The notes under the pieces were generated by a model. It worked only from the letters and a program-made list of their open reading frames with translations, was not told the origin of the DNA and made no database searches. From Sipunculus nudus (lineage: Eukaryota > Annelida > Sipuncula > Golfingiida > Sipunculidae): DNA of 64,000 nt. Shown here piece after piece: positions 14,401 through 57,580 of this stretch (positions are counted from its first letter, which is position 1; every line of letters starts with the position of its first letter). The position numbers and the translations under genes are program-made. The stretch is from NCBI GenBank assembly GCA_026874595.1, contig CM049308.1, positions 81,452,124 through 81,516,123 on the forward strand, written 5' to 3'.

Positions 14401-14526
14401 GAATGAAACACCTGAATTACCATACATGTACAAAATCTGTACCAACCTTATACACAAGGGACCCATGGGTCACATCCCTCAGCTAAATTTCAGAAAATTT
14501 TAGCGAGTGCAAAATATTTTTTTTAT

Positions 14527-14547
14527 TTATATATATATATATATATT
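14527..14547. repeat. (TA)n microsatellite
   Basis: About ten TA dinucleotides following a T/A-rich run, inside the mobile element at 14454-15983. Confidence 0.9.
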
Positions 14548-15199
14548 AGCATTTAAAAAGTTAAATCGACTGGCCCTGCTATTGCTAAATAATAATAATT
14601 TTATACTAAATATATATTTGCTGAACTAATACTGAGCACTTTTATAGACTATATCAAAGATGCAGGAGTCCCTTACGATAAAATATTTCTAGATGTATCA
14701 TTATTTCAGCCATGTGACAGGGATAGGTGCTTAAAATAACCATGAGAATGTATGAACACCTGTCAATTATAGTAACATGGAATGAAGTGGAAATTAGCTG
14801 AAGTATAATAATACACATTTAATTTATAAACTGTAATAAAATGTAGTAAAAAAATTTAAAAAATCATTTTTTAAAATGAGCATAAACTAAATCTGATAAG
14901 TGTATATTGTACTATGTAATACATGAAAATGATGCCTGTCACCTTTTAATGATGCAATTAGAAACTAGAATATCAGCAGAAGCTGACAAAAGCCCTCAGC
15001 TAAAAGAACAGTATTTAAAGGTGGTAACAGCAACAAGTACTAAATATCTGTTCTCACATGGATGTATATCTGTACATGTCTCAGTTATAAATTTAAAATG
15101 GAGAGATATGTACCATGATTCAAAACAATCCACCAAATGCTTCCTGAAAAATAAGCTTCTAAGTTTTATTCGATTATAAGCTCTGTGACCTTGAAAAGT

Positions 15200-15803
15200 A
15201 GGTCAAAGGTCACCAATCTTCGAACTTTGTCGATATACATCTTCACCAAAGAAATAAAATTCCTATTGTGAATACTTTTTGAGATATCATGCTCACAAGG
15301 CCAAAGTTGAAAAATCCAAGGAAAATTCATTAAAAATCAGAAATTGTAGGTGGCGCCCCCAAACTTGTGCAGCAGTTACAGACAATCAGTCCCTATGACC
15401 ATAGTAAGTATTGTAAAAATCCACCCAATGGTTCCTGAGAAATTAGCTCCTAAAGTGTTTTTCTATAATCAGCTCTAAAATGTAGAGAAATAGGTCAAGG
15501 TCACCCATCTTCGAACTTGACCGAGATTTTGTCAATATACATCTTCACCGAAAAAATAAAATTCCTACGGTGAATCCTTTTAGAGATATCCCGCTCACAA
15601 GCTCAAAGTTGAAAAATCCGATAAAAATTCATTTAAAATCAGAAATTGCAGGTGGCACTACCAAACTTGTGAAGCAGGTACAGACTATCAGTCCCAATGA
15701 TCATAGTAAGTTTTGGAAAATCCACCAAATGGTTCCTGAGTAATAAGCATCTAAGTGTTTTTCTATAATCAGCTCTAAGATGTAGAGAAATAGGTCAAGG
15801 TCA
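15200..15803. promoter_or_regulatory. AGGTCA direct repeats, one per core unit
   Basis: AGGTCAAAGGTCA (DR1) is at 15200-15212. AGGTCAAGGTCA (DR0) is at 15492-15503 and again at 15792-15803. All are perfect nuclear-receptor half-site pairs in the same position of consecutive core units of the element. Binding is untested. Confidence 0.5.
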
Positions 15804-15983
15804 CCCATCTTCGAACTTGACCTAGATTTTGACGATATACATCTTTACCGAGGAAATAAAATTCTGACGGTGAATCCTTTTCCAGATATCCCACTCACAA
15901 GGTAAAAGTTAACGGACGCCGGACAGACGGACGGACAGCTTGGGTGATAACAATAGCCCATCAGCCTAAGGGCTGAGGGCTAA

Positions 15984-16880
15984 AAAAATCATTGTTTGCC
16001 TAAGAGTAATATAAAGGAATACATTTGACCAACAAAAATGTGTTAATGTTATTTATAAGTCTGGATGGAGGGACACAGAGAGCTAGAGAAAAAGGAGAAA
16101 GGGGGAGCATTCAACAGTGCTTACAGGAAAAAAAAAATTATTCATAATTATTATATATTTAATGATAAACAGAAATGTACAGACAGGACTGATCACTTTA
16201 TGTCCCATTCTGCTGAGGCAAAAATATTATATGCTTCAATTAAATCCTAATTTTTCATTACACTATTATTTCTCAACAAACCCTAATAAAGTTGCTATGA
16301 AACTAATGGGCAAGAGTACACAGGTGTAAGGGCTCAATCGGTGTGGAGGGAGTTAATAAGAGTTACAATACCTCTGGATATACACACAGGATATGAAATT
16401 TTAAGCAACAGTGAGAGTTACAATACCTCTGGATATACACTCAGGATATGAAATTTAAAGAAACAGTGCTTACAGGAGGAAATGTTTCTTCATAAATATT
16501 AAATATTTACAAAGAGACAGAGAGATGAACAAGCAAAGCCAATCACTTTATTTTATATTATGTTGAGGAAGGAAAATAATGAACAATAAATATCTGAAAT
16601 ATAACTTGAATCAGAATTTACCATTTTAAATTGCACCTTAATTTATCCATAATTATGCTTCCTGATGGGTTTAATTATATTTTAATTTGTTAAAATTATT
16701 TAAAATTATATTAATTTCTTAAAAATGTTTTCACTTGGTGGGGGGGGGGAGGGGGAGGGGGTGATATGAGAATAACTGTGCACCTGTGACCCATTACACA
16801 TCAGGTAAGCAGAGAGAGCTATACTCAATGACCTAAAGTGACCAAAATGGGCTGCTTGACAATGCAGCCTTAAAATAAAA
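15984..16880. other. AT-rich sequence with a short tandem duplication and G-rich tract
   Basis: No gene seen. AGAGTTACAATACCTCTGGA followed by TATACAC occurs at 16359 and 16414 (55-bp tandem duplication). A G-rich run with two A interruptions is at 16739-16762. Two overlapping open frames at 16065-16329 have simple lysine/isoleucine-rich composition and are probably chance. Confidence 0.6.
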
Positions 16881-18987
16881 TACAATAAGAACCTTAAAAA
16901 TTCAATAATTAGCCTAACTGTAAAGCTTTTATTATCAAATTTCAGATTTTAACAAATTAAACCCTTATGTGTACATGCTGTGAACATTAAATCTACAGTA
17001 CTTACAGGAAAAAGTGTGCCATGGCCAAAGTTGGGCAAAATTTAAGGTGCTAGATCATTTTATGTTTATGCTTATAACTTTAAAAACTGCATAATTAAGA
17101 TCTAATTTTGGGTATACAATTAAATCTTGATAAAACAAAGTTATATCCCTGAAAAAAAGTCTCTAGCTTCAACAAATCTCATTAAATTGATTAAATGTCT
17201 TTCCTGACATTTTACATTATATTCAGGCCCATAATATCAAGAAACTACATGAAACTGATCACATTTCTAGTATGTAGACAGGAAATAGAGGAAAATTTAT
17301 ATTAAATTTGATAAAAAACAAATACCGTAAAATCTCCACTTAAAACCGCACTTCCGATTAAAACCGCACCCAGACTTCGCCGAAATTCCAGGCGAGACAC
17401 CGCGAGGGGCTCAAATACTAAGAACCCCCCTTTAAAACCGCACCAACTTTCGCTACGGAATGATTTGACAAAAGACACAATCAAGCAATCATCTAGAAAT
17501 GAACACGCGTAGGTTGCGACTCGGCCATTCCTGTCCACTTTAAAAATTCCTTGGGCATTTTATTTTAACACATCATAACACTTTTTTGCAGGGTCACTCA
17601 AGTATGAAGTTTGGGAAGACGTAAGGGCCGGTGAACCTCTGCCTGTTTATACAGATTTTATATTCCGTGCCGTATTCTTGTTTGCTACTGATTTGTCATT
17701 ATATTTTGGAAAAAATATTCTGCTGATCCATTTCAAGTCACTGTATATTTTAATTCTAAAAGTAATATTTTGAAATCTTAATTTTTGATGAAAATTCCAT
17801 TTTCTGGATTTACTCGGAAGATTCAAATCATTTTCATACCGGTTACTTCGGTATTATCTTCGTCACATCGTACGTTGACATCGCTCCATGTCACAATTTG
17901 CTGGTGCGTTTGAAAACATCGCTGGTCAACTTAACTAAATATCGAAGTACTGAAGTTACCTTTTAGAGATACGCACGTATAGGAAACATGACGCTTGAAA
18001 ACGAGTGATTTTAAGGTAAAATTAAAGTGGCCAGTCCGGGTTAGCAAGTTTTTTTCCTGAAGAAAGTTTCCGTGTGGAGAGCCATTTTGTCAAGGCAGTG
18101 TTCGCGCAAGGCACGCTGGGACGAAATAGGTGGCTGTTCTATTTACCACCCACCGCTTACAGCCGTTCAAAATATTCTTAGCAGAATACCGGGGTGTTTC
18201 AGCACATGGCGGCACTCAAACTAGATTTTAAAACGATCGTCTGCCATTGTGTGACTCTTTACGATGTCAGCTTTTTATTCATTTTACGTTTTAAACAAAT
18301 AATCATTGCTAAATAATGCCGCAAATGGGTTTAAAGTAGGCTTTTATTTCAATTTTGCTTGACCATGCCCAACGAAGTGGACCGCTGTGTGTAACAGCAG
18401 GGTTGTTGTAAACGTATTATTTGGTGACAATTACCAAGATTTTATAACAAGTTATATATCACACGAAAACTTATCAGCAATATTAAATTTTTATAAATAA
18501 CAAATAATCGTAAATAATACATTTACACACGGCTCCCATGCATGCTAAGAACAGCCTTCGAAAGTTGCAATATTATCGCCCACGCGCCGGCCCAAAAACG
18601 ATGTCTGTCAGAAAGATATTCAGGAAACCCTTCTAGTATAAACCGCACAGTGCTTTCAGGAAATCAACCTGATTTCAAGATTTTGAATTTCTTGATTAAA
18701 CCGCGGTTTTAAGTGGAGATTTTACGGTAAGTGGTTTTGAAGTGTAACAATGGGTTTTAAATTAAAAATTCAGATTTTTCCTACATGTCTCGAAGAAACA
18801 AAGTCATAGTGAGCCACTTTATGGTATGATAAGAGATTTTGGGGACATCTAACTGTATGTCGAATTTTGGATTTACAGATCCAATGATTCTAAACATGCC
18901 AGTTTAACAGACGGCCAGACAGACGGACAGACCGATGGACAAAGGATCATGGCTATAACTCAGTTTATTTATAGTCAGCTGTGCTAA
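16880..18987 (+). mobile_element. R2-family Helentron-like 3' part, split by a nested element
   Basis: Matches 35430-36103, 39140-39738 and 48380-49083: ACAGTACTTACAGGAAAAA, GTGCCATGGCC, GGGCAAAATTTAAGGT, then GAGATTTTGGGGACATCTAA, CAGACGGACAGACCGATGG, and the end TATAGTCAGCTGTGCTAAAAA with CTAA at 18984-18987. The copy is interrupted between GATAAAAAACAAA and AGTGGTTTTGAAGTGTAACA by the element at 17325-18727. The 5' end is not recognisable, so the copy is 5'-truncated or decayed. Confidence 0.75.
17325..18727. mobile_element. 1.4-kb terminal-inverted-repeat DNA element nested in R2
   Basis: Terminal inverted repeats CCGTAAAATCTCCACTTAAA continuing into ACCGC are perfect over about 25 bp. 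They are flanked by TA on each side (17323-17324 and 18728-18729), as in Tc1/mariner/pogo-type insertions. The left end repeats its own motif (AAAACCGCACTTCCG, then AAAACCGCACC). The interior is richer in CpG than the surroundings and holds an internal inverted pair (GGTTACTTCGGTATT near 17839 against GTACTGAAGTTACC near 17948). The longest frame (78 codons, minus strand, 17302-17538) mostly reads the inverted repeat and shows no transposase motif, so the element is non-autonomous. The R2 copy at 35811-35840 serves as the empty site. Confidence 0.85.
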
Positions 18988-20300
18988 AAACTACTTTACA
19001 CAAGGTTTCATTCATCAGCTATTATTTTACCTGAATTACTATACTCTTACTGTGTTTACAGTACCATGGGAAAATCTACAATTTTACACAAACAGAAATA
19101 AGTTAATATCTAAACTATTATAAGCCACTTACAAATTTGTTGTTAAATGTATAGTAAAACAGTGGAACAGTAAACCATGCTGGAATCTACGCTTTTTCCA
19201 ATGGTAAGGCCTCTGTTTTAAATTTCATTTTATGCTCATTTTGACAGAACTCTTCACTGGTGACCATTCTTTCACATAATAAAATTGTTCAATTATTTAT
19301 CATAAAAAGCCAATGAAAGGTTTAAGGCAATTATATTGTAAGGTGGAAAACTGATACATATATGATAATGTATTTGCTACAACAATGCATATTTTACCTG
19401 AACAATTGTTGAATATCATTATAATGGACATTCAGAAAATATTAAAATACACTTAAGCATCATTTATCTGATAAACAATTCTGCATGATACACCATGAAT
19501 GCCAACCTGCTGCCTAGCAAATTACTTTATTAGAAACTGACGTACATGAATTAATGAGGCTAGTCCAAATAAACATTTTGGTTAGGTGTTCCATCAATTT
19601 ATCTTGTAAAATACATTGAAATAATTGCTAATTAGACCTTAAAGATCAGAAATCATTTCATTGTTGAATATCTTACATTGTTTGAATTTCTGATAAATGG
19701 TAAAAGTTTTTGGTTCTCATTTTTCAATTTAAGTTAAGTGATTTTTTTTGGATAAACAGTGATTGGAAAACAACATTCTACTGTATATATGAATCATTTG
19801 GAATAAGCATACCTGACATCATGTGGCAGACATTCCCGGTTTAAGTGGTGTTCTATGACTACCATCATGCACAGGGTCTTCAGGGATGGAGCTAAAATAC
19901 ATAAAACAAATGATTAATAACATACTTGTAAGAATGTTAATTAATTTATCTTGTTGATCTCACCTAAAACTTGTACTGTTGCACACTATGATAAACATAA
20001 CAATTTGATAAGTATGACTAAAAAATATACAAGAGTTCACACTGTAATTAGGTGTTCTTAAAGCAAATGGCCTTTTCTGCCATCCTCAATGGTGCACATG
20101 TTCACAATAATCCTTTATTTTGCCAAGATTTGACCTGGAGAACCAAGGAAAAGATCACCTGTTTCAAATAATTAACATGTCTGTGATCTTGGTGGAAACA
20201 ATTTGGTACAAAAGGTGAGGGAAAATATGCAGTACATTCTAAAATCATATGATTATGGTTAATTGAAATGGTAATTAAGGGCATAACCCCATTTTAAATA
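18988..20300. other. Unique AT-rich sequence
   Basis: No gene, RNA gene or repeat recognised. Confidence 0.5.
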
Positions 20301-24504: not shown

Positions 24505-25455
24505 GGAAATACACCAGGTATAATGCTTCAATGCTGGACCACTACTTTTCATGTATATGAACAATGCAAGTACTAAACATTTTGAATAAGAAACAATTAC
24601 ACAAACATCACTGCTGAAATTCTGGCATTGGTGCACACAACACAAAAACGATTGTAGCTGGCACCACCAGTCTTGTATACAGTGAAGCTATCAGAGATAT
24701 ACACATACGCCAATTTTCAGACTGATATATCAAACCCCTCCTGAGAAATAAGCAGAGACACACATTGTGCAAAAATTATTGTAGGTGGCACCACCAGTCT
24801 TGTATACGACAAAGCTATTCCATATGTATAAATATGCCCAATTTCAGGCTGATATATTAAAGTCCTCTGTATAAATAAGCAGGCACATACACTGTGCAAA
24901 AGTGCAATGAAGGTGGCACCACCTGTCTTGTAAATGAGAATACCATCAAAGATGCATAGACAGGTCAAATTTCAGTCCAATACATCAAACTTTCCCAGAG
25001 TTTGATGCACTGGGTTGACAAGGCTTAGGTGAGTAAGACATTTGCCCCCGAGTGACCTGTGACAAATTGCTGCCTCAAGCTACTGCACTGAGTGAACTCT
25101 TGACCTACACCTGGATACACTGAGTGAACTTTTGACCTGTACCTGGCTGCACTGAGTGAACTCTTGACCTGTTGCATAATCTGACACAGTTGGCAGTCTG
25201 CCAAAGCTATAAATAGATTCAGGCTGAACTTTGGTGCCAAATATGATGCAGAGAGCAGTCTGCCAAAGCTATAAATAGAATACAGCTAATGCACTGAGTG
25301 AACTCTTGACCTATTCCTGGCTGCTTTTCTTCCAATCCTGGCACTGTGCCAAAACTATTTATAGAGCTGACACATTCTGGGCTAATGGCCAACATCAAGG
25401 CACTGGCAATCTGCCAGTGGTAAACCAAGTGCTGCCATCTGTACACATAAATGGC
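24505..25455 (+). repeat. Dispersed repeat R1, second copy
   Basis: Collinear with 5190-5990: CACCAGGTATAATGCTTCAA, GGTGGCACCACC modules at 24784 and 24912, CATTGTGCAAAAATTATTGT, then repeated CACTGAGTGAACTCTTGACC and CAGTCTGCCAAAGCTATAAA. It is joined directly to the end of the R7 array, so the two modules may belong to one composite element. It differs from the first copy by substitutions and indels, hence is not a recent duplicate. Minus-strand frames starting at the same codon in both copies reflect shared repeat sequence. Confidence 0.8.
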
Positions 25456-25879: not shown

Positions 25880-27510
25880 CATATATGGTAAAATGACTCA
25901 ATTCAATCTCCATAATTCAGCCAAAAATCATTCATGTGGAACCATTAATGAAAATTATTATAAGAATTATTGTAGGGATTATTCTTGTAAAATAGTTAAC
26001 AAACTGGCTTCAGTGGCATCAGTCGAAAAACGTTTCACAGGTTTAAAACTCATATAGGAAAATACAGCAAAATGGCTAAGTTAAGCTTCCCATAACTCAG
26101 CCAAAAATCACTGAACCAAAACCATTTGAACAAACTTGAATAATCAACATCTGAGGATAATTAATGTGTTAGATTTAAGAATTTGGCCAAGTGGTTTTTG
26201 AGAAGAAGATCTTTGTAGCCACTGAGCTAAAATGGGCTGTTATGGCATATGACTAAATTCAGCTTCCCATAACTTATCCAAAAGTCACTGAAAAGTGACA
26301 CAAACTTCAGAAAGCACTACCCTAGGATCATTTCTTTGCGATATTAAACATTTTGGCCATATGGTTTCAGAGAAGAAGTTTTTTGTAGCCCACAGTGTGA
26401 TACAGGCACTGATGACCCTGTACAAAAAAGGCCCATGCAGGTGGCGCCACCAATACCTCAATTTCAGATATGACCTATGTGACCAACATTGGCATAAAAT
26501 TTGGTGATGATAGCTCCAGCTGTTTCTGAGATTTAAATTTTAATATGCTTTTTTGCACAATTAACAAAGTTCAACCTCCTGTAACCTGGCCAAAAATCTC
26601 CGAACCAGAACCATTCCAACAAATTTGAGAAAGATTGTTCCAGGGATCATTTCTGTGAAATATTGGACAATTTGGCTGGGCAGTTTCGGAGAAGAAGATT
26701 TTTAAAACTTTTTTAGCTTTTTCCCTATAAAATCTAAGAAAATGCAGTTAGAAAAAAAAAAATAAACAAAATCTGATATAGTTTTTTGGATGACACATTA
26801 TTTGCAAAAAATTTGGTGATGCTAGCTCCTGCCGTTTTTGAGATAGCTATGGTTAACGTACAGACGACGCACGACGCACAACACACGACGGACGACGCTG
26901 CACCATCGTATAAGCTCACAGGTTTGGTAACAATTTGGCCATATGGTTTAGAGAAGAAGTTTTTTTGTAGCCGTCAGTATGATACGGGCACTGATGACCC
27001 CTGTACAAAAAAAGCCGATGCAGGTGGTGCCACCAATACCTCAGTATCAGATATGACTCATGTGACCAAGCTTGGCATAAAATTTGATGATGATATATAG
27101 CTCCAGCTGTTTCTGAGATTGTAATTTTAGTATGCTTTTTTGGACAGATGACTAAGTTCAACTTCCTGTAACCTGGCCAAAAATCACTTAACTTAAACCA
27201 TTTGAACAAATTTGAAAGAGATTATTCCAGAAATGATTTCTGTGAAATATTGGACAATTTAGCTGAACAATTTCGGAGCAGAAGATTTTTAAAGCTTTTT
27301 TAGCTTTTTCCCTATAAAATCTATGAAAATGCGGTTAGCAAAAATAAGCAAAATCCAAGAGTGTTTATATGACTAATTTTTGCATAAAATTTTGTGATGC
27401 TAACTCTTGCCATTTTCAAGATAGTATGGGTTAATGTACAGATGACGGATGACAGACGACGGATGAAGCCACTCCCTCACATAAGCTCACAGGTTTGCTA
27501 AAAATATGTT
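25880..27510 (+). mobile_element. Tandem-core element (family R4) with duplicated 3' module
   Basis: At least five core units are marked by TAACTCAGCCAAAAATCACT-like text (about 25905, 26090, 26270, 26580, 27170). A block of about 580 bp is duplicated: about 26340-26930 matches about 26925-27510. Both contain TTGGCCATATGGTTT, GAGAAGAAGTTTTTTGTAGC, a GGTGGCGCCACC/GGTGGTGCCACC module (26440 and 27023) and AAAATTTGGTGATGATAGCT. Each copy ends in an ACG-rich stretch (26863-26905, 27440-27470) and ATAAGCTCACAGGTTTG, the second followed by CTAAAAA. The 5' end was not identified. Confidence 0.72.
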
Positions 27511-27514
27511 CAAA

Positions 27515-27838
27515 TACCATGTTGAATGAATGAACAGTTAAAAAATATTATGTATACAATCAGAAAGTACACTGTACCAGGTTTAAAATAATATATGCTT
27601 CATTGGGTCAAACTGAATGTAAAACAATAATTGGAATAATTGTAGATATAGGGGTTTTGCCATGGGTTTAACTGTATGACTTGAATCATATTGTAGGTTA
27701 AATTTACATATGCTGGTGCTATGAGCACAATAAACCTGTGATCTGTGGAGCTAGAATTGTTACAGAACACAAGTGCAAAATAACCCTATCATCCACTGCT
27801 GAAATATATGTAGAAACTAGACATTTCTTGGCACCGCA
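27515..27838. other. AT-rich spacer
   Basis: No gene or repeat recognised. Confidence 0.5.
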
Positions 27839-27974
27839 GGTGCCAGAGTATCCCCAGACATAGTAGGCCCCCCTCCTACAAGAACAGACCCCCATTTTTA
27901 GCAGCATATACTGACACTTGGCATATTTATTGTTTATTCCATCTAACGATCCACAATCTTGTTGAAGATGTTGG

Positions 27975-30690
27975 TCCTGTGACCTTGATCTTTTTAAAGA
28001 TGTGTCCTGTGACCTTGACCTTTGATCTCATAACCCCAAAATCAATTTGGGTCTTGCTTTTCCAATGGGACATATGCAAGTCAAGTTTGAAATCTATACA
28101 TCAATAAAGCAGGAATTATCATCCAGAACTTATTTTTGGACAGATGGCTCCTGTGACCTTCACCTTTGACCTTGTGACCTCAAAATTGATAGGGTTCTTC
28201 CTCTCTTGGCAGGAGAACTATATGTGCAAGATGAAAGATATGAGATGAAATGTTTGGCTGAAAATGCATCCACATCTTTTTAAAGATGTGTCCTGTGACC
28301 TTGACCTTTGACCTCATGACCCCAAAATCAATTTTGGTCTTACTTTTCCAATGGGACATATACAAGTCAAGTTTGAAATCCATACATCAATAAAAGCAGG
28401 AATTATCATCCAGAAACTTATTTTTGGACATATGGCTCCTGTGACCTTCATCTTTGACCTTGTGACCTCAAAACTGATAGGGATCTTCCACTCTTGGCAG
28501 GTGAACTATATGTGCAAGAGGAAAGATCTGGGATGAATTGTTTGGCTGAAAATGCATCCACAATCTTTTTAAAGAGGTTTCCTGTGACCTTGACCTTTGA
28601 CCTCATGACCCCAAAATCAATTTGGGTCTTGCTTTTCTAATGGGTAAATAACAAAGCCAAGTTTGAAATCCATACATCAGTAAAAGAAGGAATTATCATC
28701 CAGAAACTAATTTTTGGACAGAAGGCTCCTGTGACCTTCACCTTTGACCTTGTGACCTCAAAACTGTTAGGGTTCTTCCTCTCTTGGCAGGTGAACTATA
28801 TGTGCAAGAGGAAAGACCTGAGATGAAATGTTCGGCTGAAAATGCATCCACATCTTTTTAAAGATGTGACCTTGACCTTTGACCTCATGACCCCAAAATC
28901 AATTTGGGTCTTGCTTTTCCAATGGGACATATATAAGTCAAGTTTGAAATCCATACATCAATAAAAGCAGGAATTATCATCCAGAAACTAATTTTTGGAC
29001 ATATGGCTCCTGTGACCTTCACCTTTGACCTTGTGACCTCAAAATTAATAGGGGTCTTCCACTCTTGGCAGGTGAACTATATGTGCAAGATGAAAGATCT
29101 GAGATGAATTGTTTGGCTGAAAATGCATCCACAATCTTTTTATAGAGGTTTCCTGTGACCTTGACCTTTGACCTCATGACCCCAAATTCAATTCCGGTCT
29201 TGCTTTTCCAATGGGTCAAATACAAGTCAAGTTTGAAATCCAAACATCAATAAAAGAAGGAATTATCATCCAGAAACTAATTTTTGGACAGATGGCTCCT
29301 GTGACCTTCACCTTTGACCCTTGTGACCTCAAAATTGATAGGGTTCTTCCTCTCTTGGCAGGTGAACCATATGTGCAAGATGAAAGATCTGAGATGAAAT
29401 GTTTGGCTGAAAATGCATCCACATCTTTTTAAAGATGTGTCCTGTGACCTTGACCTTTGACCTCATGACCCCAAAATCAATTTGGGTCTTGCTTTTCCAA
29501 TGGAACATATATAAGTCAAGTTTGAAATCCAGCAATCAATAAAAGCAGGAATTATCATCCAGAAACTAATTTTTGGACATATGGCTCCTGTGACCTTCAC
29601 CTTTGACCTTGTGACCTCAAAATTGATAGGGGTCTTCCACTCTTGGCAGGTGAACTATATGTGCAAGATGAAAGATCTGAGATGAATTGTATGGCAGAAA
29701 ATGCATCCACAATCTTTTTAAAGATGTGTCCTGTGACCTTGACCTTTGACCTCATGACCCGAAATTCAATTCCGGTTTTGCATTTCCAATGGGTCAAATA
29801 CAAGTATAGTTTGAAATCCATACATCAATAAAAGAAGGAATTATCATCCAGAAACTAATTTTTGGACAGATGGCTCCTGTGACCTTCACCTTTGACCTTG
29901 TGACCTCAAAATTGATAGGGGTCTTCCTCTATTGGCAGATGACTTATATGTGCAAGATGAAAGGTCTGAGATGAAATGTTTGGCTGAAAATGCATCCACA
30001 TCTTTTTAAAGATGTGTCCTGTGACCTTGACCTTTGACCTCATGACCCCAAAATCAATTTGGGTCTTGCTTTTCCAATGGGACATATATAAGTCAAGTTT
30101 GAAATCCATACATCAATAAAAGCAGGAATTATCATCCAGAAACTAATTTTTGGACAGATGGCTCCTGTGACCTTCACCTTTGACCTTGTGACCTCAAAAT
30201 TGATAGGGGTCTTCCACTCTTGGCAGGTGAACTATATGTGCAAGATGAAAGATCTGAGATGAATTGTATGGCTGAAAATGCATCCACAATCTTTTTAAAG
30301 AGGTTTCCTGTGACCTTGACCTTTGACCTCATAACCCCAAAATCAATTTTGGTCTTGCTTTTTCAATGGGACATATATAAGTCCATTTTGAAATCATTAC
30401 ATCAATAAAAGCAGGAATTATCATCCAGAAACTAATTTTTGGACAGATAGCTCCTGTGGCCTTGACCTTTGACCTTGTGACCCCAACATTTATATGGATC
30501 ATCCATTATTGGCAAGTGAGCTATATATTCAAGATAGGAGACCTGGGATGAAAGTTTGGCTTAAAATGCATCCACAGTATCTTTTAAAATGCCAGTCCAG
30601 TGACCTTGACCTTTGACCTCATGACCCTAGAACCTATAGGGTTCTTACTTTAGTGGTGGGCCATACATAAGTCATGTTTGAAATCCATAT
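27975..30690 (+). repeat. 289-bp satellite with dimeric higher-order repeat
   Basis: Anchor GACCTCATGACCCC (with variants) recurs at about 28024, 28310, 28599, 28881, 29170, 29459, 29748, 30036, 30325 and 30615 (period mostly 288-290). Neighbouring units alternate between two types. Type A has CACATCTTTTTAAAGATGTG and GTTCTTCCTCTCTTGG. Type B has CACAATCTTTTTAAAGAGGT and GTCTTCCACTCTTGG. The true repeat is therefore mostly a 578-bp dimer. The last unit (after 30530) is the most diverged. Repeated minus-strand frames of 67-74 codons simply mirror the units; 289 is not a multiple of three. Confidence 0.93.
28016..30619. promoter_or_regulatory. Phased AGGTCA half-site clusters in the 289-bp satellite
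   Basis: Each unit holds TGACCTTGACCTTTGACCT, the reverse of three AGGTCA sites as DR1 plus DR0. Perfect DR1 cores (TGACCTTTGACCT) are at 28302, 28591, 28873, 29162, 29451, 29740, 30028, 30317 and 30607; 28016 has one mismatch. The other half of most units carries TGACCTTGTGACCT (DR2, for example 28167-28180). These match established nuclear-receptor half-site spacings. Binding is not shown by sequence. Confidence 0.5.
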
Positions 30691-31218
30691 GGCTATCAAC
30701 ACTGGAGATATCATAAGAGGTGTGTGATTTTCACCATATATGGCAATATTCAAGGTCAAGGCCACTATCATAGGAAAGGTCATGACCCCAATTTAAATAA
30801 GCATCATCCCATAACCCATACCTATGTATATGCATAATATAAAAGAAATCTGTCCGTTAGTTTTTGACTTATAATGCTCACAGTGCTGTAAGGTGGCAAT
30901 TTAGGGGGTATTAAACGGCACGAAAACAAGTAAAGAATAATAGGTGGCGCCACCAGTTTCTGGAACATGACAACCCTATCCATGATATTCCATCAACTTG
31001 ATTTTGGGATAAATCCATGCAAGATTTCTTGAGATATTAAAGAATTTGTGTGATTTTCCCCAAAATTGGACCTATTCAAGGTCAAGGACACTCTCCTAGT
31101 AAAGGTCATGACCTCATTTTAAATAGGCGTCGTCCTCTTACCCATATCTATATATATACCAAGTTTGGTAAAGTTCCGTGAAATATTTTTTGGGTTATCG
31201 CGCCAACAAGATTCATAT

Positions 31219-31237
31219 GCGGCGGCGGCGGCGGCGG
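31219..31237. repeat. (GGC)n microsatellite
   Basis: Six GGC units just upstream of the R5 terminal hairpin. The second R5 copy has GGCAGCAGCGGCCACGG at the same place, so the run is a decayed family feature. In one frame it reads polyarginine, which is not evidence for a gene. Confidence 0.9.
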
Positions 31238-31290
31238 GACCGGTATGAAAACATAGTATCCCCCGACTTTGTCTGGGGATACAATAATGT

Positions 31291-36103: not shown

Positions 36104-36117
36104 AAAACTGTTTATTT

Positions 36118-36794: not shown

Positions 36795-36796
<2 letters not shown>

Positions 36797-36825: not shown

Positions 36826-36829
<4 letters not shown>

Positions 36830-43204: not shown

Positions 43205-43582
43205 GTCCTAAATATATATGCATGTATGTGTGTGATTAAGAAAATAGGTTTTAATTAGAAAATAATACACAAAGGAAAAGGATCCATATCATCAGTACGT
43301 ATCAGATATCACTTTATGTGTATCACAATACGTATTGTACCTGGACAGGCTGACCAATAACCAGACCTACTGGCAGGCCATTTTAACAAAGAATCAAAGG
43401 TCAATTTGTCAATTTTTTTAAAATAAAATTTAAGAAGAAAGAGAGATATATATATACCATAAAAAGACTCCTGGAGATATTTGTATGCATTTTAAGATAA
43501 TGTAATGGTAAATGAATACTTATTGCCAAAGGCTAGATATATCACGTTTTTTGTAAAAATTAAAATTTTACTTTAAAATTTA
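43205..43582. other. Unique AT-rich sequence
   Basis: Nothing recognised. Confidence 0.5.
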
Positions 43583-43652
43583 ACAAGTGGCTCTTGGGCC
43601 ATGACACTCAGCTTATTTTGACTGGGTGCTCATTTCTTTTATTAATGTTATA

Positions 43653-44421
43653 CAGTGAAGTCTCGTTATAATGGGGTCCGTTACAACGGAAGACTCGAGT
43701 TAGGGACAAATCTCAAGGGAATGATCGAGTGAAAGTTAAAATTGGCTTTGACATAACGGAAAACTTGAGTTCTGGTTCCAAACGGACTAATATAAAACAA
43801 AATGAACCTTGCCGCTATAATCAGAATCATTATAACAAACGAGAAGTGCGATGGTCAGGTCCAAGTTTCCCCAGTCCTTTGATCTTTGTTAAACCCAGCC
43901 AACACTGACTGGCTAATTAATACATAACAGGGCAGGATTTCACACCTAGGCCATCGTTGAGTGGTTATGTCACCGCTGTTTACTCGACATCACGGTTGAG
44001 CAGACCCGTGTTCATTCTTCGCGTATTGCTTGACCAGTAAATGAGATGAATGTCAAAATGTTGGGTAAATAACTTTGCCACATACCTCATTAATTGAGAA
44101 ACAAAAGATACTATAAAGAATGTTTAGCCAAACAGTCAAGACATAATTATCCAAACAATGTAGCTTTGTATATATGTCCATTATATACATTAACATTGTA
44201 AATTTGTTTTCTTTATATATATATATGTTCATTATGTAATAAACGTGCTTTATTTGGTATGAACTTTTTCCTCTTTGTGGATGAATATGCGCGTGTGTGC
44301 TTTTATCAGTTTTCTTTCATGCTACAAAACTGCATACTCCGACATTTCATTATAACAGAAATTCGATTTATGGCACTAATTTGCTTGGAACAAACATGTT
44401 CATTATAACGAGACTTCTCTG
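43653..44421. mobile_element. 769-bp pogo/Tigger-like MITE with TA target duplication
   Basis: Left terminus CAGTGAAGTCTCGTTATAAT and right terminus (reverse complement) CAGAGAAGTCTCGTTATAAT differ at one base in 21. TA flanks both ends (43651-43652 and 44422-44423). The CTCGTTATAAC-type terminus is typical of pogo/Tigger elements. No transposase is recognisable in the interior, so it is non-autonomous. Insertion is inside the 5' arm of the element at 43583-45698. Confidence 0.87.
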
Positions 44422-44580
44422 TATATTGTCTGTGAGAATTGCCTATGGCTATACAGGAGATTTGCCTAGAACCTCCAAGGATGTTGCTTAAGAAGAATCT
44501 AGGCCTAATGGATAAAGTTTGTGCCCCGACTGACTGTCTGGGTGCTTATATGACATCTTTACCTATAGGTCACAAAATAT

Positions 44581-45539
44581 AGCTCATGGTGACCTAATTT
44601 CAGTTTTCCAAGAACATTTGCCGAGGACGTATCAGAATGTTACATTAGAAAAATCTAGGCCTAGCAGATACAATGTGTGTGACCTGACTGACTTTCTGGT
44701 TGCTTATATGACTTCTTTTCCTATAGGTCACAAAATATAGGTCATAGTGACCTAATTTTAGTTTTCCAAGAACATTTGCCAAGGACGTCTCAGGATATTA
44801 CATTAGAAGATTCTAGGCCTTACAGATACAATTTGTGCCCATCTGACATTCAGGGTGCTCAAAATCATGTTTTTGGCCTGAAGGTCACAAAATATAGGTC
44901 ACCATGGCCTTATTTCAGGTTTCCAAGGGAATTTGCCTAGAACCTCCCAGGATATTGTGTAAGAAGATTCTAGGCCTAACAGATACGATTTGTAGACATC
45001 TGACATTCAGGGTGTTCATACAACATCTTTTTTCTTTTAGGTCACAGAAAATAGGTCACATTGATCTAATTTCAGGTTACTAGAGACATTTACCTTGGAC
45101 CTCCTGAAATGTCACCTTGGAGGATTCTAGGCCTAATGGATACAATTTGTGCCCCATCTGACTGTCTGGGTTCTTAAAATCATGTTTTTGGCCCATAGTT
45201 CACAAAATATAGGTCACCATGACCTAATTTCAGGTTTCTAAGGAGATTTGCTTAGAAACTCCCAGGATATTGTTAAAGAACATTCTAGGCCTCACAGATA
45301 TGATTTGTCCCCATCTGACATTCAGGGTGCCCATATGACATCTTTTCCCTATAGGTCATAGAATATAGGTTACAGTGACCTAGTTTCTAGTTTCCAGGGA
45401 CATTTGCCTAGGATCTACCTAAATGTCATGTAAGAGGATTCTCAGTCTAATGGATACAAATTGTGCCCCGTCTGACTGTCTGGGTGCTTAAAGTCATGTT
45501 TTCTGCCCGTAGGTCACAAAATATAGGTCACCATGACCT
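44581..45539. promoter_or_regulatory. Phased IR3 (ERE-type) palindromes, one per 158-bp unit
   Basis: Seven sites match AGGTCANNNTGACCT, at 44581, 44739, 44896, 45053, 45211, 45367 and 45525. Those at 44739 (spacer TAG), 45211 (CCA) and 45525 (CCA) are perfect; the other four have one mismatch each. Spacing is 156-158 bp. IR3 of AGGTCA is the classical estrogen response element. Whether a receptor uses them is unknown. Confidence 0.55.
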
Positions 45540-45698
45540 AATTTGGGTTTCCAAGGAGATTTGCCAAGGACCTCTCTGGATGTACAGTAAGAAGTTTCTA
45601 GGTCTAGTGGTTAAAATTTTTGCCCTGTAATGGACGCACAGCCAGACGGACGAAGGGTGATCGATATAGTTTAGATGACTTACAGTCAGCTGAGCTAA

Positions 45699-46454
45699 AA
45701 ATCTTCTGACCAAAATTAAAACCTTTGTTTATATATAGCTTATCAGACAGAGGATATTCTGGGGATGCCCAATATGCATATATCACTGGGGCTAAAATTC
45801 ATTTTAATATGTATTTAAAGCTTATCATTATAATTGGTAGGACTGACACAATACATGATACAATACATATCACGATATATTCATTCACAATACTATACAC
45901 GTTACAATACATGAAAGTGGAATATCAGAGTTCAGATTTAAAGTCTTTGCCCTTCTTGGTCTCAAGGGCTAAATCACATTAAGCTTTGCCATACCACTTT
46001 ACCTCCACTCTTTAGGGTAACGAATAATGAAACAGCCCCTTTTAATTTTTTTTTATTTTGCTTCAGTAAGCCAATCAGATGCAGATTAACTAAATTCTGA
46101 GAAAATGATGTCCGTCTTGCACTCGCTAGGCCGCTGACTATTGCTGAATGCTTGTTGCTTGAAAAATGTCTCATTTTCCATTGGGATTTCATTTATTGTC
46201 AACGAATCAATACTGAGACATTTGATTATACCGAAAAAATATCTGACTTTGTATTGTGATGTATTTGTGCATCCGTGAATCGTTACAGCCTTAATGGATG
46301 AGCTGACCAAATGATGGATCAGATCCAGATTAGGATGGACATTTTGCTTGATTTCAATATGAAATTGTTGACTGAAGATCCTTGGTAATTTTTTTTTAAT
46401 CCATATGTAATAAAATGATTTGTATATATTTGTCTGTGAATGGCATATATAAAA
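45699..46454. other. AT-rich sequence, possible decayed hAT-like MITE
   Basis: ACTGACACAATACATGATAC then ATATCACGATATATTC (about 45840-45885) and, inverted, ATTGTGATGTATTTGTGCAT then CCGTGAATCGTTACAGCC (about 46254-46291) resemble decayed inverted ends. No target duplication is visible. No gene seen. Confidence 0.35.
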
Positions 46455-49083
46455 ACAAGGGACCTATGGGTCACGATGCTCAGCTGTTATATATGATAAA
46501 AAAATATTATTTAGAAATGAGGCACATGCTGGTTTTGTGTGGTAATAAATATAAGCTGTATTATGAGTTGTTGTTGTTTAGCTTATGTATGATTTTGATA
46601 GTACCTTTGGAGACAGGGAAGAGGATTGATTTCATTTATTTAATTAACAATTGGAGTACTATTGTCACACAGATTTTGACTTGGCCATATAACTTATAAG
46701 CAGAACATATAATATAAGAGTTTAACTATTTATTAAAAAAAATTACAAATATTGTCCCAAATATAATTTTTATTAAAAATAATAAGAGAATCATATGATT
46801 TTTTAAAATGAAATATAACTGATATGATTATTAAAATAATATTAAAGAATATATTCATTAATGCATTCATGAATACATTTTGAAAGTATTTGCAAGAGTA
46901 TTCATATACTTTCATTTTTACCTGAATTCCCATTCTTTATGCAAGAAATTTTATAATGGAGTACATAATCATATTCGTATTTAAATACAATTACAAAGTA
47001 TTCGCACCATGTCTGGTATTTATTCAATTTTCACCAAACAATGATGTTGAGAATCCAGAATATACAAAATTCACACATTTAAATAATAATCATAAGTACC
47101 TGGTTTTATGGCTTTTATTTATATTAAAAAAATAAATGTAAAAAATTCATTTTGGACTAATTTCACATCAATGTACACACTAGACACAGTAGGAATCTAG
47201 ATTAATATTATCAACTGCATCTTTGTCTATCATTAATTTCCTTCATATGATCCCTAATGATTAGTAATGAATAATATGATTTACTTCTTTATCATTAAAA
47301 TTGAACTGAAAAATGCCATAGGTGACTGCATGGTGTTATTTGGAATATGTGACATTCTACCCATCGATACAAGATTCTTATATCATCAGTAACTGCAAGT
47401 TAATTTCCTGTTATTATAAACTAACAAATTCCTTTTCTATTTTTCTTTAATTTGTTATTAAAAACCAATAAAAATTTATTAATTTGTTGTTTATTGTTAT
47501 GTTGTTGGTTAAAACTACTAGATGAGTTGGGTTGGACACCTGGATCAACTGTGGCTGGCCATAAGCTGCCTGGATTCCTGTATGCCTCGCCTCAAGCGTG
47601 CATAATTTGATGAAAGGTCAACAAGGTCAACATACAGGTGACTCAAGAGGGGCTGGAGAGAGCCAAAGTCTGACAGGGTGTCATAAAAAACATTAATAAA
47701 AGCTACAATTTTTGGCCAATTTCTTTCAGCTTTCTAAACTAAAAAGCTGAAATCCTTATGTGTGCATGATATGAAAATTATATCAACAGTGCTCACGGGA
47801 AACAAACGTGCCATGGTCACAGTTGGGCAAAATTTAAGGTACTAATTTTATATTTATACTAATAACTTATAAAATTTGAAAAATTCAGAACTAATTTTGG
47901 GTATTCAATTGAATCTTGATTAAATAATGTTACATCCCTGACAAAAAAATCTCTAGCAATGCCCTTGTTAAGGGAGTAAATATATTTCTTGATTTTTTAC
48001 AAAGTGCATTATGTTTCGGCCCATAACTTAAAACAATTACGCAATACTGACATCATTCTGGGATGTGCATAGAGAATGAAAAATATGTATATTGTTTATG
48101 ATTAAAGTCAGATCAGTGGTTTTGATATTAGGCAGTCTTGAACTGTAACAATGGGTTTTTCATGGAAAAATGAAGTTTTTCATTAATATCTCGAAGGTAT
48201 TAAGTCCTAGTGACCAAATTCTTGGCATGGTAGGGGATTTTTGAGACATCTAACTGTAAGCTGAATTTAAGGAACTTAGAGCTGAAGCTGGGGAGCTGAG
48301 CTTTTGCAAACTGCATAACACTAGCTTGATGTAAACAATATGTTACAAGGTGCTTGAAAACTTGATTAAAATCTACAGTTTTTGATCAACTGGTTTCAAA
48401 TTTTTGGTGTTAACAGTTGAAATGCTGACAAAAACATGCTGTGAAAATTAAATCCACAGTACTTACAGGAAAAAAACGTGCCATGGTCAAGTTGGGCAAA
48501 ATTTAAGGTACCAATTTTTTATTTTTATTAATATTTTAAAAAATTTAAAAGATTTTCATCTAATTTTGGGTATACAATTTAATTTTGATTAATTAAAGTT
48601 ATATTACTGGAAAAAAGGTCCACAGCTTCAACATTTTTTGTGTTAAGTGATCAAATATCTTTCCTTATTTTTTTCAAAATGCATTATGTTTGGGCCCAGA
48701 ACTTTTTTAAATTAAATAATACAGACATAATTTCTGGCATGTACATAGGAACTATATAGAGGAATATTTATGGTAAATATGAGGAAAAACAGATGAGTGG
48801 TTTTGATATTAGGCAGTCCTAAAGTGTGAAAATAGGTTTTTAATAAAAAATTGAGGTTTCCTTAATTTCTCAAAGGAACAAAGTTGCAAAGACCCAGTTT
48901 TCGGCTTGGTAGGAGATCTTGGGGACATCTAACATTATGCCGAATTTTGGATTCCTAGGTCTTACGGTTTCAAAATGTGCCACATCTACAGACGGACGGA
49001 CGGACGGACGGACGGACAGACGGACGGACGACGGACAATGGACCACGACTATAGCTCAGATGACTTATAGTCAGCTGAGCTAA
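46455..49083 (+). mobile_element. 2.6-kb Helentron-like element with two R2 core units
   Basis: Starts ACAAGGGACCTATGGGTCAC with GCTCAGCTG at 46478-46486. Ends with the longest ACGG run in the window (about 48990-49035), the compound hairpin, CAGCTGAGC at 49072-49080 (exact inverted partner) and CTAA at 49080-49083. The 5' part matches 33891-34450. The core has two units of about 650 bp (about 47695-48290 and 48350-49000), each with ACAGTRCTYACRGG and GTGGTTTTGATATTAGGCAG. This copy joins a 5' arm otherwise seen at 33891 to a 3' arm otherwise seen at 34453-36103, so the two belong to one family or recombine freely. Confidence 0.75.
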
Positions 49084-50164
49084 CAAGCTAAAAGAATTTA
49101 CTAAATAACATTAGAACCTGTCTTTATTCAATAAACAGTGAAAGCATGATAAGGCTGCTGCATGAAAGTGACATCACAATTTAATTTCCATACTCAGTGT
49201 GACTGGCCATTGGGTATTACTCTTTAAGACATGGTTTTAATATCTTATTATGGCCATTTAACTGCAGTTTTAATGCCTCATGATTCTTTTTCTGTTTACA
49301 TTGTATCCATATTCATTTGTATTTTGATCTGTATCTTTCTAATATCCCTTGAATATACTTTATATTTTGGTTAATCATTTTTATTTTGATAAAGTGAGCA
49401 GTGATGTAGCCTGTGCCTCAATCACATGTCAAATTTATGAGACAGAAATGAAACTTGGTAATGTGACAGGAGCCTCTCAGCAAAGGATACATTTTCAAGA
49501 TACTGTGAAACCTGTGTTATGAGACCACCCTTGGGACTGGCCAAAAGTGGTCTTAAATCACAGGGGGTCTTATTAGACAGGTCAGTTATAACCAATGTGA
49601 ATGTTTTCAGTTCACCCAAGGCTGGTCTTATTAGACAGATGGAACCTGAGACAGGTTCTACTGGACTTAAAAAGTGTTAGACTGACAGACATTGAGCTCA
49701 GCCTGTCACTTTTAACTTGAGATCATAAACACAGCTGCATCTTCTGTCTAAATTCTGCAAGTAATTTGATAATGGCTGCTGTAGGTCACATATCTGCAGC
49801 ACAAGTCAGCCGTTCTATTTTCTCTCTCTCTCTAACACAAAATGCTGATAGGTGTCTCAGTATCTGAACTTTGGTCAGAGTCTTTTTAACCCCTAGTCTA
49901 CTGAAAACATTGCAGACATATATCAGAAGATACTCACCTCAAGGAGGCAAAAAGCTAGCATTAAGCTTAACTGAATTAAAAGCTGCAGAAAATCTTGACT
50001 ATTTATATTTAAGTAATTTGCTGAACAGGGGTCAACAGGTGTTTGAGTCCTGCACAAATATGTATTGCAATAGCTGAGTGAAAATCATCAATATTTGTGA
50101 TTTATAGCCAATGTTGGCAGTAGAAAATGAAGAAAAAAAATGTTGAAATGGATGGTCTTTCACT

Positions 50165-54571: not shown

Positions 54572-54573
<2 letters not shown>

Positions 54574-54983
54574 CATATGAGCACATTATGTTAAATGTAA
54601 CTACTCTTAATAAAACCAAGATTTATGATCTCATAATAGCGACATGTATCATTTTCATTTGATATTTTAAACCCAAGGCAGTACACAGAACCAATTAGCT
54701 GCAGAACAAGATCAAATACTTTATAAAGAAACTGTAAGCAAATCAGAAACAAGGCATCTTTTATAATACTGCCAGGAGCATACATGCAAAACCCACTGAA
54801 AAAATTTGTAAGTAGGATATGGAAACTTGAACATTCAACCAGTTTTTCTGATGGAACACCTGTATTTTTAAGAAACCTGAGACAGCCCCTTTCCTCTCGT
54901 GTTGCTTCCAACCACAGGCTCCAGGTAATTTACCTAATATTGTTGAATCTCCGCAAAAAGCGCCTAGTGTTTTATGTGACCAT

Positions 54984-54997
54984 GTTGCCATAGCAAC
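54984..54997. promoter_or_regulatory. Perfect RFX X-box motif
   Basis: GTTGCCATAGCAAC fits GTTRCCNNRGYAAC at every position. X-boxes bind RFX factors and mark many ciliary gene promoters in animals. No downstream coding exon is visible, so function is uncertain. Confidence 0.4.
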
Positions 54998-55679
54998 TAA
55001 AGGTCAGACAAAGGGGTAAATGAACACAAATAAAAAGAGCCGTAAAATGTGGCTTCAATTAGGGAAAATTCAGCAACTTTAAGAGGAGGGGTCCTGATAA
55101 GTAAATATTTCACAGTCATCACAGATATGGAAACAAATTAGAGGGTTGTCAGCAGAGCACTGACACCCATCCCCTTTATATCATCTTGGAATGAAGTCTG
55201 GGCTGTTATGCAGATTCAAACCACATTTTTTTTTACAAACAAAAAGTGCTACAGGCCTAAAACTTTCCTCTTTGGAATAAAAGAATCATTATATCAAAAT
55301 ACTATAATGCGCAAGTTCCACATGGGAAAAGATAAGGGATATTGTGATACTCTACATATTATGTAACACAGTTTGACTAGTCATACAGGTGCCTGGATGA
55401 AATTACAACTTGAGTAACTGGATGTAATTATAAATGTCGGAAAACACTAAAGTCTGACTGTATTAATTTCAACCTACTTTTTTCAGTAGGCTCTGAAAAA
55501 TCAGATTCCCTAAAGCAACATAATTATAAATTAAATGTTCTGGAAAGGGGTCCCATTGAGCCAGTGTTATGTTTCAATATAAATAATAAAACATTAATAG
55601 TTTCCTTTGATTTAATTAATTAATTAAAGCAAAAACATATTTTCATAAAATAACTTAAGCACTGCAAATGGTGCATAAT

Positions 55680-57580
55680 ATGCCCATACAACCTCTGACC
55701 TCATTAAACATGCATGATTTTGCTGAGAATGTAATTCAGGGGGGAAAAACTATATTATTTAATACTCATCATGAGTAATATGATAATCAATCAGATTTTT
55801 TGGAAGTCAGGGCTGTGCCATCAGGGTGTAGTGACCTCATTAAATATGCATGGATTTTGTTGAAAATAAGACTAAGTTAAGATATTATATTGATTAATGT
55901 TTACTATTGAGTTTTATCAAAATCAACTATATTCCTTGTATGTTATTGCGGCGACACCACATATTGGTCTATACAAAGCAGCCTGGTGACCTCTGACCTC
56001 ATTATGACCTCAAATATGCCTGAACTTTGCAGAGAATTTAATTGAGGTGAGAAACTCTATTGGTCAATATTTATAATCCGTTTCATGAGAATCCATAGGA
56101 CTTTTAGTAAATCACCAAAATACCTCCAAAGTTCAGTGCCCTATGACTAACTAAATAATAGGTTAATTTTGCGAGAAATCAAACTAAGGCGAGATCTCTT
56201 ATTGATTAAAATTTCTGTTGAATTTTATAACAAGTGACCCGTGGGTCATGACGCTCAGCTGACTGACACGTTGACAATATGTCCTTGCACAGACAACCTA
56301 ATTAAGGTAATGTAGGTGGCATCATTGTTCATGCATATTAGCTTAAGTTCATCAAGACCCATAAGCACAACAAATCTGATGACAAACCAACCTGCCTTTC
56401 ATGAGTAATCTGGCAATTTGTGTGTATTTTGCATTATTTCTAGGGTGCTCAAACATACCCCAAAACTCTGAGAATATAGTTCACTGTGACCTAATTTCAG
56501 GTTTCAGGGGAGAACTTTTGAGGAACTCTCAGGATGTCAGGTTAGAAGATTCTGGGCCCAAAGGTTATGATTTGTGCCCTACTTTGGTATCAAATTTTCA
56601 ATTATTCTGAGGGGTGCTTATATTTATAAGCCCCACAGCTCAGAAAATATGGGTGACAGAGACCTAAATACATGTTTCCAAGGAGATTTTCATAGACCTC
56701 CCTGGATTTTAGGTTAGAAGATTCAAGATCCAATGTTAATGATTTGTGTCCTGCTCTGGTATCAAATTTGTATTATGATGGGGGTACTTATAAGCCCAAT
56801 AGCTCAGAGAATATGGGTAACACAGACCTAATTTCATGTTTCCATGGAGACTTTTCGTGTACCTCTCTGGATTTAAAGTGAAAAGATTCTATGTCTAATT
56901 GTTACAATTTGATCCCTGTTAACAGATGACCACATCTTTTAAGGTCTCAAAAATAGAAAAAATACAGGTGGCACCATCAGTCTGCAGAAACTGATGAAAA
57001 ACTCCATGATGAATATCCATGCAAAGAATCATGGTGAATGATGCATTAGTTGTTCAGATACTTGAGCTTTTGTATCAAATTTTTCATTATTCTGGGGGGT
57101 ACTTTGGAGCCCCATAGCTTGAAGAATGGGTAACAGAGATCTAATTCCAGGTTTCCAAGGAGATTTTTCATGGACCTCTCTGGATGTAAAGTTAGAAGAT
57201 TCCAGGTCCAGTGGTTATGATTTGTGCCTTGTTAACGGACAGAGGGCCGAACGGACGATGGACAGAGAGTGATCGCTATAGCTCAGATGACTTACAATCA
57301 GCTGAGCTAAAAATCTATCATATTCCTTGTAAGTTATAGAGGCGACACCACAAGGTAGCCTAGTGACCTCTGACCTTATTTAATATGCCAGGATTATGCC
57401 TATAATGAAACTCTGGTGATAAAATCTATTGTTAAGGAATTATGGTGAGTTCGTGAAAATCCATCAAAGCCCGAGTATGTTATCATGGCGACACTAAAGT
57501 TATTGGACAGATGGTGGAACTGCCAGACCGACGATGGGGATAACATAATAAGTCCAGTCATAGACAGGCATATAAAAATA
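55680..57580 (+). mobile_element. Family R6 tandem-core element, split by a nested element
   Basis: Units of about 170-200 bp carry ACCTCTGACCTCATTAAACA, TGCATGGATTTTG, a GAGATATTATATTGATTAAT-like segment and TATATTCCTTGTATGTTATT then GCGGCGACACCAC. They are found at about 55690, 55830, 55985 and 56140, and resume at 57312-57530. It ends with GACAGATGGTGGAACTGCC, CATAATAAGTCCAGTCATAG and ACAGGCATATAAAAA. Perfect DR1 TGACCTCTGACCT lies at 55987-55999 and 57364-57376. The 5' limit is approximate. Confidence 0.7.
56231..57310 (+). mobile_element. Complete 1.08-kb Helentron-like element nested in R6
   Basis: Starts ACAAGTGACCCGTGGGTCAT with GCTCAGCTG at 56254-56262. Ends GATAGCTATAGCTCAGATGA-type text, a hairpin (TGACTTACAATCA), CAGCTGAGC at 57299-57307 and CTAA at 57307-57310. 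The core has about four units of roughly 165 bp (AAAATATGGGTGACAGAGAC, TTTCCAAGGAGATTTTCATA, GATTTGTGCCCTACTTTGGT). A shortened ACGG-type tract is at 57235-57262. The flanks, GTTGAATTTTATA on the left and ATCTATCATATTCCTTGTAA on the right, rejoin to an R6 unit, so both boundaries are defined to within a few bases. Confidence 0.82.

Follow-up and report, generated by a model that had tools for sequence, protein, structure and literature searches.

Helentron-type insertions of a single orientation in a 64-kb stretch of the Sipunculus nudus genome, with matching ends that show no covariation within a family

The 64,000 nucleotides of Sipunculus nudus DNA analysed here (GenBank assembly GCA_026874595.1, contig CM049308.1, forward-strand positions 81,452,124 to 81,516,123; hereafter the window) very probably carry 11 or 12 insertions of Helentron-associated interspersed elements (HINEs), non-autonomous rolling-circle elements of the Helentron type. 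In every insertion the 5' end lies at the higher plus-strand coordinate. The insertions represent two families, A and B, with one divergent A-like case, E1, at 14.4-16.0 kb. Read along the minus strand, the complete elements consist of a T-run, a 5' subterminal inverted repeat (subTIR), a complementary inverted repeat (IR), a GTC-type or CCG microsatellite, a repeated core, a 3' subTIR, a palindrome and CTTGT(T), the CTTGT being absent from B. In family A the 5' end opens with the T-run and AGCTCAGCTGACT; after a gap of 3 nt comes the near-complement AGTCATCTGAGCT, followed by a GTCC-type microsatellite. The 3' end consists of the subTIR CAGCTGAGC, a GACCCATGGGTC-like palindrome and CTTGTT. 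Family B has TT, GTATCCCCAGACA, GTCGGGGGATAC and CCG repeats, followed by an array and then TGTCTGGGGATAC and TGGCACCTGCGGTGCCA.

On the plus strand the family A modules align in seven copies on the left, from ACAAG through the GACCCATGGGTC-like palindrome to CTCAGCT, and in nine copies on the right, where the alignment spans the hairpin and the GACG-type stretch. Each of the ten 5' ends has two or more Ts before the subTIR, with one additional A between them in E10, the termini being placed by sequence only. An IR complementary to the 5' subTIR lies within 1-12 bp of it and is clear at six of the ten ends (E1, E2, E3, E5, E6 and B), but weak in E4, Ex, E9 and E10. With DNA parameters the 5' hairpins of these six are predicted at -12.0 (E1), -10.6 (E2 and E5), -10.4 (B), -8.2 (E6) and -5.7 kcal/mol (E3). 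GACG-type clusters adjoin seven of the nine family A 5' modules (not Ex or E10). The succession of 3' subTIR and palindrome can be recognised from the bases themselves in seven family A modules and in B, although the palindrome is imperfect in E4 and E7. Central tandem arrays are found in E1, E4, E6 and B, and E5 has two long internal repeats.

The original prediction had recognised elements of Helentron type that have hairpins and, close to either end, short inverted repeats, and that much stands, but it read them in the wrong direction: the elements lie on the minus strand. What it described as a 3' end, with a hairpin just before CTAA or AATA, is the other terminus. Because a T-run precedes the subTIR at every one of the ten 5' ends, CTAA reads as the complement of the T-rich 5' terminus and not as a CTRR 3' end, and the hairpin marks the true 5' end. 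If the elements were instead canonical plus-strand Helitrons, with the 5' end as first placed and a 3' hairpin before CTAA (CTRR), this would account for the CTAA that follows the hairpin in eight of the nine family A right ends (E10 has CTTAA). However, there is no 5' TC, and the hairpin arm directly touches CTAA instead of lying about 11 nt upstream as in a canonical Helitron; on these two features we rejected an assignment to the canonical Helitrons (Helitron1). Family B ends in AATA, the order of T-run, microsatellite and palindrome agrees with the opposite polarity, and a strict scan for the whole grammar, described below, gave no match on the plus strand. A plus-strand Helitron is thus extremely improbable. 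CTAA is easily mistaken for CTRR, and correcting this changes both the polarity and the number of families.

Among the complete family A elements, E6 (56229-57312, minus strand, as are all those that follow) has its 5' end at 57311 (TTT, AGCTCAGCTGATTG and the IR), core repeats of about 160 bp at 56443-57208, the 3' subTIR CAGCTGAGC at 56253-56261, then the palindrome, and its 3' end at 56229. E5 (46454-49085) has (GACG)n at 48991-49036, two internal repeats of about 600 bp that are 73% identical, and a 9-nt match between its own subTIRs. E4 (43582-45702) contains 157-bp tandem repeats at 44455-45606; its 3' subTIR is altered (ACTCAGCTT), and its own match is only 7 nt. E2 and E8 form a compound (33890-36107) with the 5' end at 36104, an outer 3' terminus at 33890 (9-nt match) and, at 34452, the inner 3' terminus of E8, with a mismatched subTIR and a perfect GACCCATGGGTC. 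E1 (14453-15986), with a divergent 5' end (AGCCCTCAGC) and 302-bp repeats at 15226-15910, has two candidate 3' ends: 14453, with an 8-nt match and the family A palindrome, or about 14960-15002, with a 10-nt match to AGCCCTCAGC and another hairpin. B (27826-31290), from the unrelated family, has the subTIR GTATCCCCAGACA (minus strand of 31270-31282), an IR and the CCG microsatellite on its 5' side, an array of 9.4 copies of a 289-bp unit (27988-30689), and the 3' subTIR at 27848-27860 followed by the palindrome TGGCACCTGCGGTGCCA.

The remaining insertions are partial. E3 (39153-39741) has a family A 5' module and a core repeat, its own 3' end not being identified. E9 (16937-18990) combines a 5' module (TTTTTAGCACAGCTGACT) with core-repeat homology, and E10 (31955-32085) is a degenerate 5' module (AAGCACAGCTCACT); neither has a 3' end that we could find, and beyond the satellite at 1-5044, GCACAGCT or CACAGCTG was matched at three places, none adjoining a 3' module. 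Ex (6008-6282) has a 5' module with a degenerate IR and a core repeat, with no family A 3' module upstream in the window. E7 (61025-62124) is a 3' module (CAGCTGAGC and an imperfect palindrome) with a body homologous to E8, its 5' end not being found in the window. B2 (63454-63978) is 83% identical to B at 30721-31232, and its 5' end, if placed as in B, would lie at or past the end of the window.

All the paired motifs that drew attention to these ends are present, with one coordinate shifted by a single nucleotide: CCCTCAGC at 14476, with a second copy at 14993 that had been overlooked, and GCTGAGGG at 15972; GCTCAGCTG at 46478 and 56253 (formerly 56254) and CAGCTGAGC at 49072 and 57299; GTATCCCCAGACA at 27848 and TGTCTGGGGATAC at 31270; and CTCAGCT at 43607 with AGCTGAG at 45688. 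The different ends had been taken to imply separate element families. Four of these five instances belong to family A (core CTCAGC) or a close variant of it; only the fifth, 27848/31270, is family B, a 13-bp perfect pair unrelated to A.

Could such pairs be chance words, in an AT-rich and repeat-rich region where CAGCTG is itself palindromic? We took the longest inverted match in 4,000 random pairs of 60-nt segments drawn from the window. It was at least 7 nt in 898 pairs (22%), at least 8 nt in 271 (6.8%), at least 9 nt in 65 (1.6%), at least 10 nt in 24 (0.6%) and at least 13 nt in one. Short matches are therefore common, and CAGCTGAGC also occurs 45 times in the satellite. The B pair (13 nt) and 56253/57299 (10 nt) are each significant alone against random pairs, and the 9-nt pair 46478/49072 is suggestive. 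The pairs 14476/15972 (8 nt) and 43607/45688 (7 nt) do not reach significance one by one, and what makes them credible is solely their homology to the other instances. That homology, across seven 3' and nine 5' modules, argues against chance words, as do the length of the B pair and the result of a motif-blind scan for the whole HINE grammar.

The scan covered both strands of 58,956 bases (the satellite at 1-5044 was excluded) with no motif supplied, and 100 dinucleotide shuffles served as control. It gave seven overlapping matches at three loci, all on the minus strand: E6 (56.2-57.3 kb), B (27.8-31.3 kb) and E1 (15.0-16.0 kb). No shuffle reached this number: 86 had no match, 13 had one and one had two, a mean of 0.15 per shuffled window. 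The E1 locus is a single match, a level also reached by 14 of the 100 shuffles, and the motif copy involved is that at 14993 instead of 14476. This strict scan superseded a lax first version, whose 61 matches (38 minus, 23 plus) were for the most part AT-rich words scattered over the sequence; 20 shuffles had given 22-48. We consider chance an exceedingly poor explanation of the modules.

Every one of the 11 or 12 family A and B insertions has the same orientation. In an nhmmer search of both strands, modules in reverse orientation reached E 0.008 at best, and the top matches among these were the palindromes themselves. GACG-type clusters number 13 in this orientation against one in reverse, and seven of the 13 lie within the 5' modules of these elements. 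If insertions were independent, a run of this kind would have a two-sided p of about 0.0005-0.001, a value calculated post hoc. Both orientations are reported for the HINEs of Crassostrea gigas (PMC7492417), in contrast to the single one seen here. Pairs of repeats involving DNA outside the elements are also mostly co-oriented in the window (11 same, two opposite).

The original prediction went further, proposing that the two ends covary and pair with each other during transposition, with any sequence tolerated provided the ends match. Several observations favour such a model. The perfect 13-nt pair of B bears no relation to family A. E1 differs from the other A copies at one position on both sides, and its ends match each other better (8 nt) than they match those of other A copies (6-7 nt). 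The 5' subTIR is predicted to pair with its own 3' subTIR at -12.0 (E4), -15.2 (E6) and -17.2 kcal/mol (B), and less well with the adjacent IR, at -5.4, -10.6 and -13.1 kcal/mol respectively. The E4 3' end gives -12.0 kcal/mol with the E4 5' end against -9.0 to -10.4 kcal/mol with the 5' ends of other complete A copies. The ends of FoHeli1 and FoHeli2 are likewise described as different from each other yet self-matching (PMC5148889).

Swapping the ends gave a different picture. For the six complete elements (E1, E2, E4, E5, E6 and B) we compared each 5' module with every 3' module. Within family A, own pairs were no better than swapped ones. Permuting the five complete A copies gave a match score as high as that of the own pairing, or higher, in 46 of 120 cases, and for the four core copies (E2, E4, E5 and E6) none of the 24 arrangements fell below the own pairing. 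By duplex energy the own pairing was equalled or beaten in 20 of 120 and 20 of 24 arrangements. When B was included the figures became 46 of 720 by match score and 20 of 720 by energy, a result that says no more than that B forms a family of its own. In the comparison of all 5' with all 3' modules, B matches only itself at length. The 5' modules of E2, E4 and E5 match the 3' end of E6 over 12, 13 and 12 nt, and their own 3' ends over 9, 7 and 9 nt.

The individual changes also fail to behave as the model predicts. Among the core copies the true 5' subTIR differs at one position. The true 3' subTIR of E4 (ACTCAGCTT) is altered at two positions with no compensating change, so a step that tolerates any sequence as long as the ends match is not supported. 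The 5' subTIRs of E9, E10 and Ex are altered, with no 3' end for comparison. Within the window the two ends have thus varied independently in E4, and in E8 (AACCAGCTT) also, only if 36104 is its 5' end. The agreement in E1 concerns a position that varies in three of seven 3' ends, so that a single coincidence could easily be chance, and the E1 5' end matches the inner site better (10 nt of AGCCCTCAGC, 14993-15002) than the site at 14476 (8 nt). The energies are similarly divided: the IR of E2 and E5 is predicted to pair with the 5' subTIR about as well (-13.4 kcal/mol) as the 3' end does (-13.6 kcal/mol), and that of E1 better (-14.2 kcal/mol) than the outer 3' end (-11.8 kcal/mol).

Pairing of the ends with compensatory covariation is therefore very unlikely. 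A pairing step between single DNA strands may still have a role, as the subTIR energies point both ways; only its proposed trace, covariation, was not seen. One regularity is left: subTIRs differ from family to family and match within each, which is already a published criterion for families (PMC4067079, in its account of HINE families). Since the subTIR is what delimits a family, compensatory evolution is not required to explain why each family has matching ends of its own, and the within-family control shows why matched ends across families should not be taken for covariation.

The compound E2/E8 bears on how the 3' end is chosen. E8, a homologue of E7 (61026-62124), has its 3' terminus at 34452, directly next to 562 nt (33890-34451) that form the final part of an E5-like 3' end, and E5 sequence does not resume past the 5' end at 36107. 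At E 1e-4 nothing else in the window matches the E5 segment that lies past the junction (47065-47670), and 36108-37200 and 39743-40800 show only weak matches to it, of 10-23 nt (E 0.27 or worse). Simple nesting of E8 in E2 may also explain the compound; as that E5 segment did not turn up again, it would need an additional deletion, or divergence of E2 from E5 exactly at the junction. Read-through accounts for the compound without a deletion, given the abutting termini and the failure of E5 sequence to resume: copying could have run past the inner E8 end, with its mismatched subTIR and perfect palindrome, and stopped 562 nt further on at the 9-nt match, picking up a piece of another element.

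The bypassed end is predicted to pair with the 5' subTIR at -7.1 kcal/mol and the used end at -13.6 kcal/mol, a difference that would also suit the end-pairing model. Both palindromes fold weakly, the bypassed one at -2.0 and the used one at -2.7 kcal/mol. It is conceivable, though we think it very improbable, that the stop in Helentron copying is chosen by complementarity of the 5' and 3' subTIRs more than by the 3' palindrome. Against it, the bypassed palindrome, though perfect in sequence, is not predicted to be more stable than the used one. This is also a single case, and the bypassed end may have decayed later. To our knowledge, experimental work on 3'-end choice has been done only with the canonical Helitron Helraiser, and if the compound reflects a genome-wide pattern it would offer a natural test for Helentrons. 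In Helraiser the 3' hairpin is described as a terminator that can be bypassed (PMC4778049).

E1 has a second possible 3' end at 14960-15002, with its 10-nt match to the 5' subTIR and a different hairpin. If E1 were a compound it would point the opposite way from E2/E8, with the inner end pairing better (-14.8 kcal/mol) than the outer (-11.8 kcal/mol).

Interpretation of the elements as HINEs rests on their module order, which equals that published for Cg_HINE of C. gigas (PMC7492417) and agrees with the account of Thomas et al. 2014 (PMC4067079). The left flank of Cg_HINE is reported to have a 5' subTIR, a complementary IR and a GTCY/GTCC/GTCK microsatellite, and the right flank a subTIR and then a palindrome (PMC7492417). 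Satellite-like tandem repeats, a T-rich target and element-specific subTIRs are further points in common, and one-mismatch subTIRs predominate in most Cg_HINE elements; the likeness to the elements of the window is one of description, not of sequence (PMC7492417). The bivalve Pearl/CvE/MgE/DTC84 elements, again by description only, have short core-repeat arrays of about 160 bp and a HINE architecture (via PMC7492417).

SubTIRs a few nucleotides from the 5' terminus, a 3' palindrome, lack of autonomy and T flanks are shared with the Helentron/HINE/DINE-1 elements. HINE families are defined by identical subTIRs of at least 11 bp, unlike the 7-10 nt of the own perfect matches in family A, and the Helentron superfamily has an autonomous Rep/Helicase/endonuclease partner (PMC4067079), of which none was seen in the window. 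In Helitron2/FoHeli of Fusarium oxysporum the bases of the 5' hairpin come back as an inverted repeat close to the 3' terminus, and the FoHeli1 and FoHeli2 subgroups have different yet matching ends, as do families A and B. FoHeli differs from the elements described here in being found with Rep-Hel genes and in having 12-bp repeats, with a TNAT^A target and an ATTTT terminus in FoHeli1/2 (PMC5148889).

By analogy with what is described for Helitrons, the T-rich 5' end would be nicked by a Rep/Helicase acting in trans, one strand would be displaced, copying would stop at the 3' module and the product would insert at a T-rich site without duplication. Both subTIRs would descend from one end signal per family and so match, with individual copies drifting afterwards. 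For the role of the subTIRs we favour recognition of one signal at both ends, probably by the same protein or as local structure.

Several points weigh against reading the insertions as HINEs. The 5' hairpins are weak at four of the ten ends (Ex -3.5, E4 -2.4, E10 -2.2 and E9 -2.1 kcal/mol). The family A 3' palindromes fold weakly (-2.0 to -2.7 kcal/mol in E1, E2, E5 and E8), and in E1 and E7 the predicted fold of the 3' module is not the palindrome. B matches over 13 of 13 nt, but the own perfect matches of family A are shorter than the published 11-13 bp, and only cross matches reach up to 13 nt, as between the E4 5' end and the E6 3' end. The strict scan did not recover E2, E4 or E5, and its thresholds were fixed after the laxer scan and after the modules had been seen. 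Finally, the whole analysis is confined to the 64-kb window.

No autonomous Rep/Helicase partner was seen in the window: none of its 29 stop-to-stop open reading frames of at least 90 amino acids reached the Pfam cut-off, and four weak matches below it were set aside. This fits non-autonomous elements. Rfam gave no matches, and three terminal patterns searched in viral contigs gave none each. The terminal-pattern search in contigs of prokaryote genomes gave one match, in a Bifidobacterium, judged to be chance from the title of the record, the locus itself not being read. A search for further subTIR pairs at five microsatellite clusters (51.3, 26.8, 27.4, 24.4 and 18.9 kb) yielded one AT-rich candidate (24.4/18.0 kb), which we do not credit.

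The satellite at 1-5044 has a 62-bp monomer that reads, on the minus strand, GCTCAGCTGA and then TCTGAG, resembling the family A 5' subTIR and IR. A match of at least 10 nt to these was found in seven of 5,000 shuffled monomers, and a HINE 5' module may have given rise to the satellite. Repeats of another family lie at 5251-5897 and 24670-25324 and are 86% identical; sequences at 62.5-63.1 kb and, on the opposite strand, at 20.5-20.9 kb resemble them less closely. The tandem-repeat finder TRF identified units of 127 bp (24643-24990) and of 32 bp (5659-5741 and 25083-25172). The stretches 26849-27008 and 27419-27578 have AAACCTGTGAGCTTAT and a degenerate GTC microsatellite in common on the minus strand, and are possibly a further element family in the same orientation as A and B.

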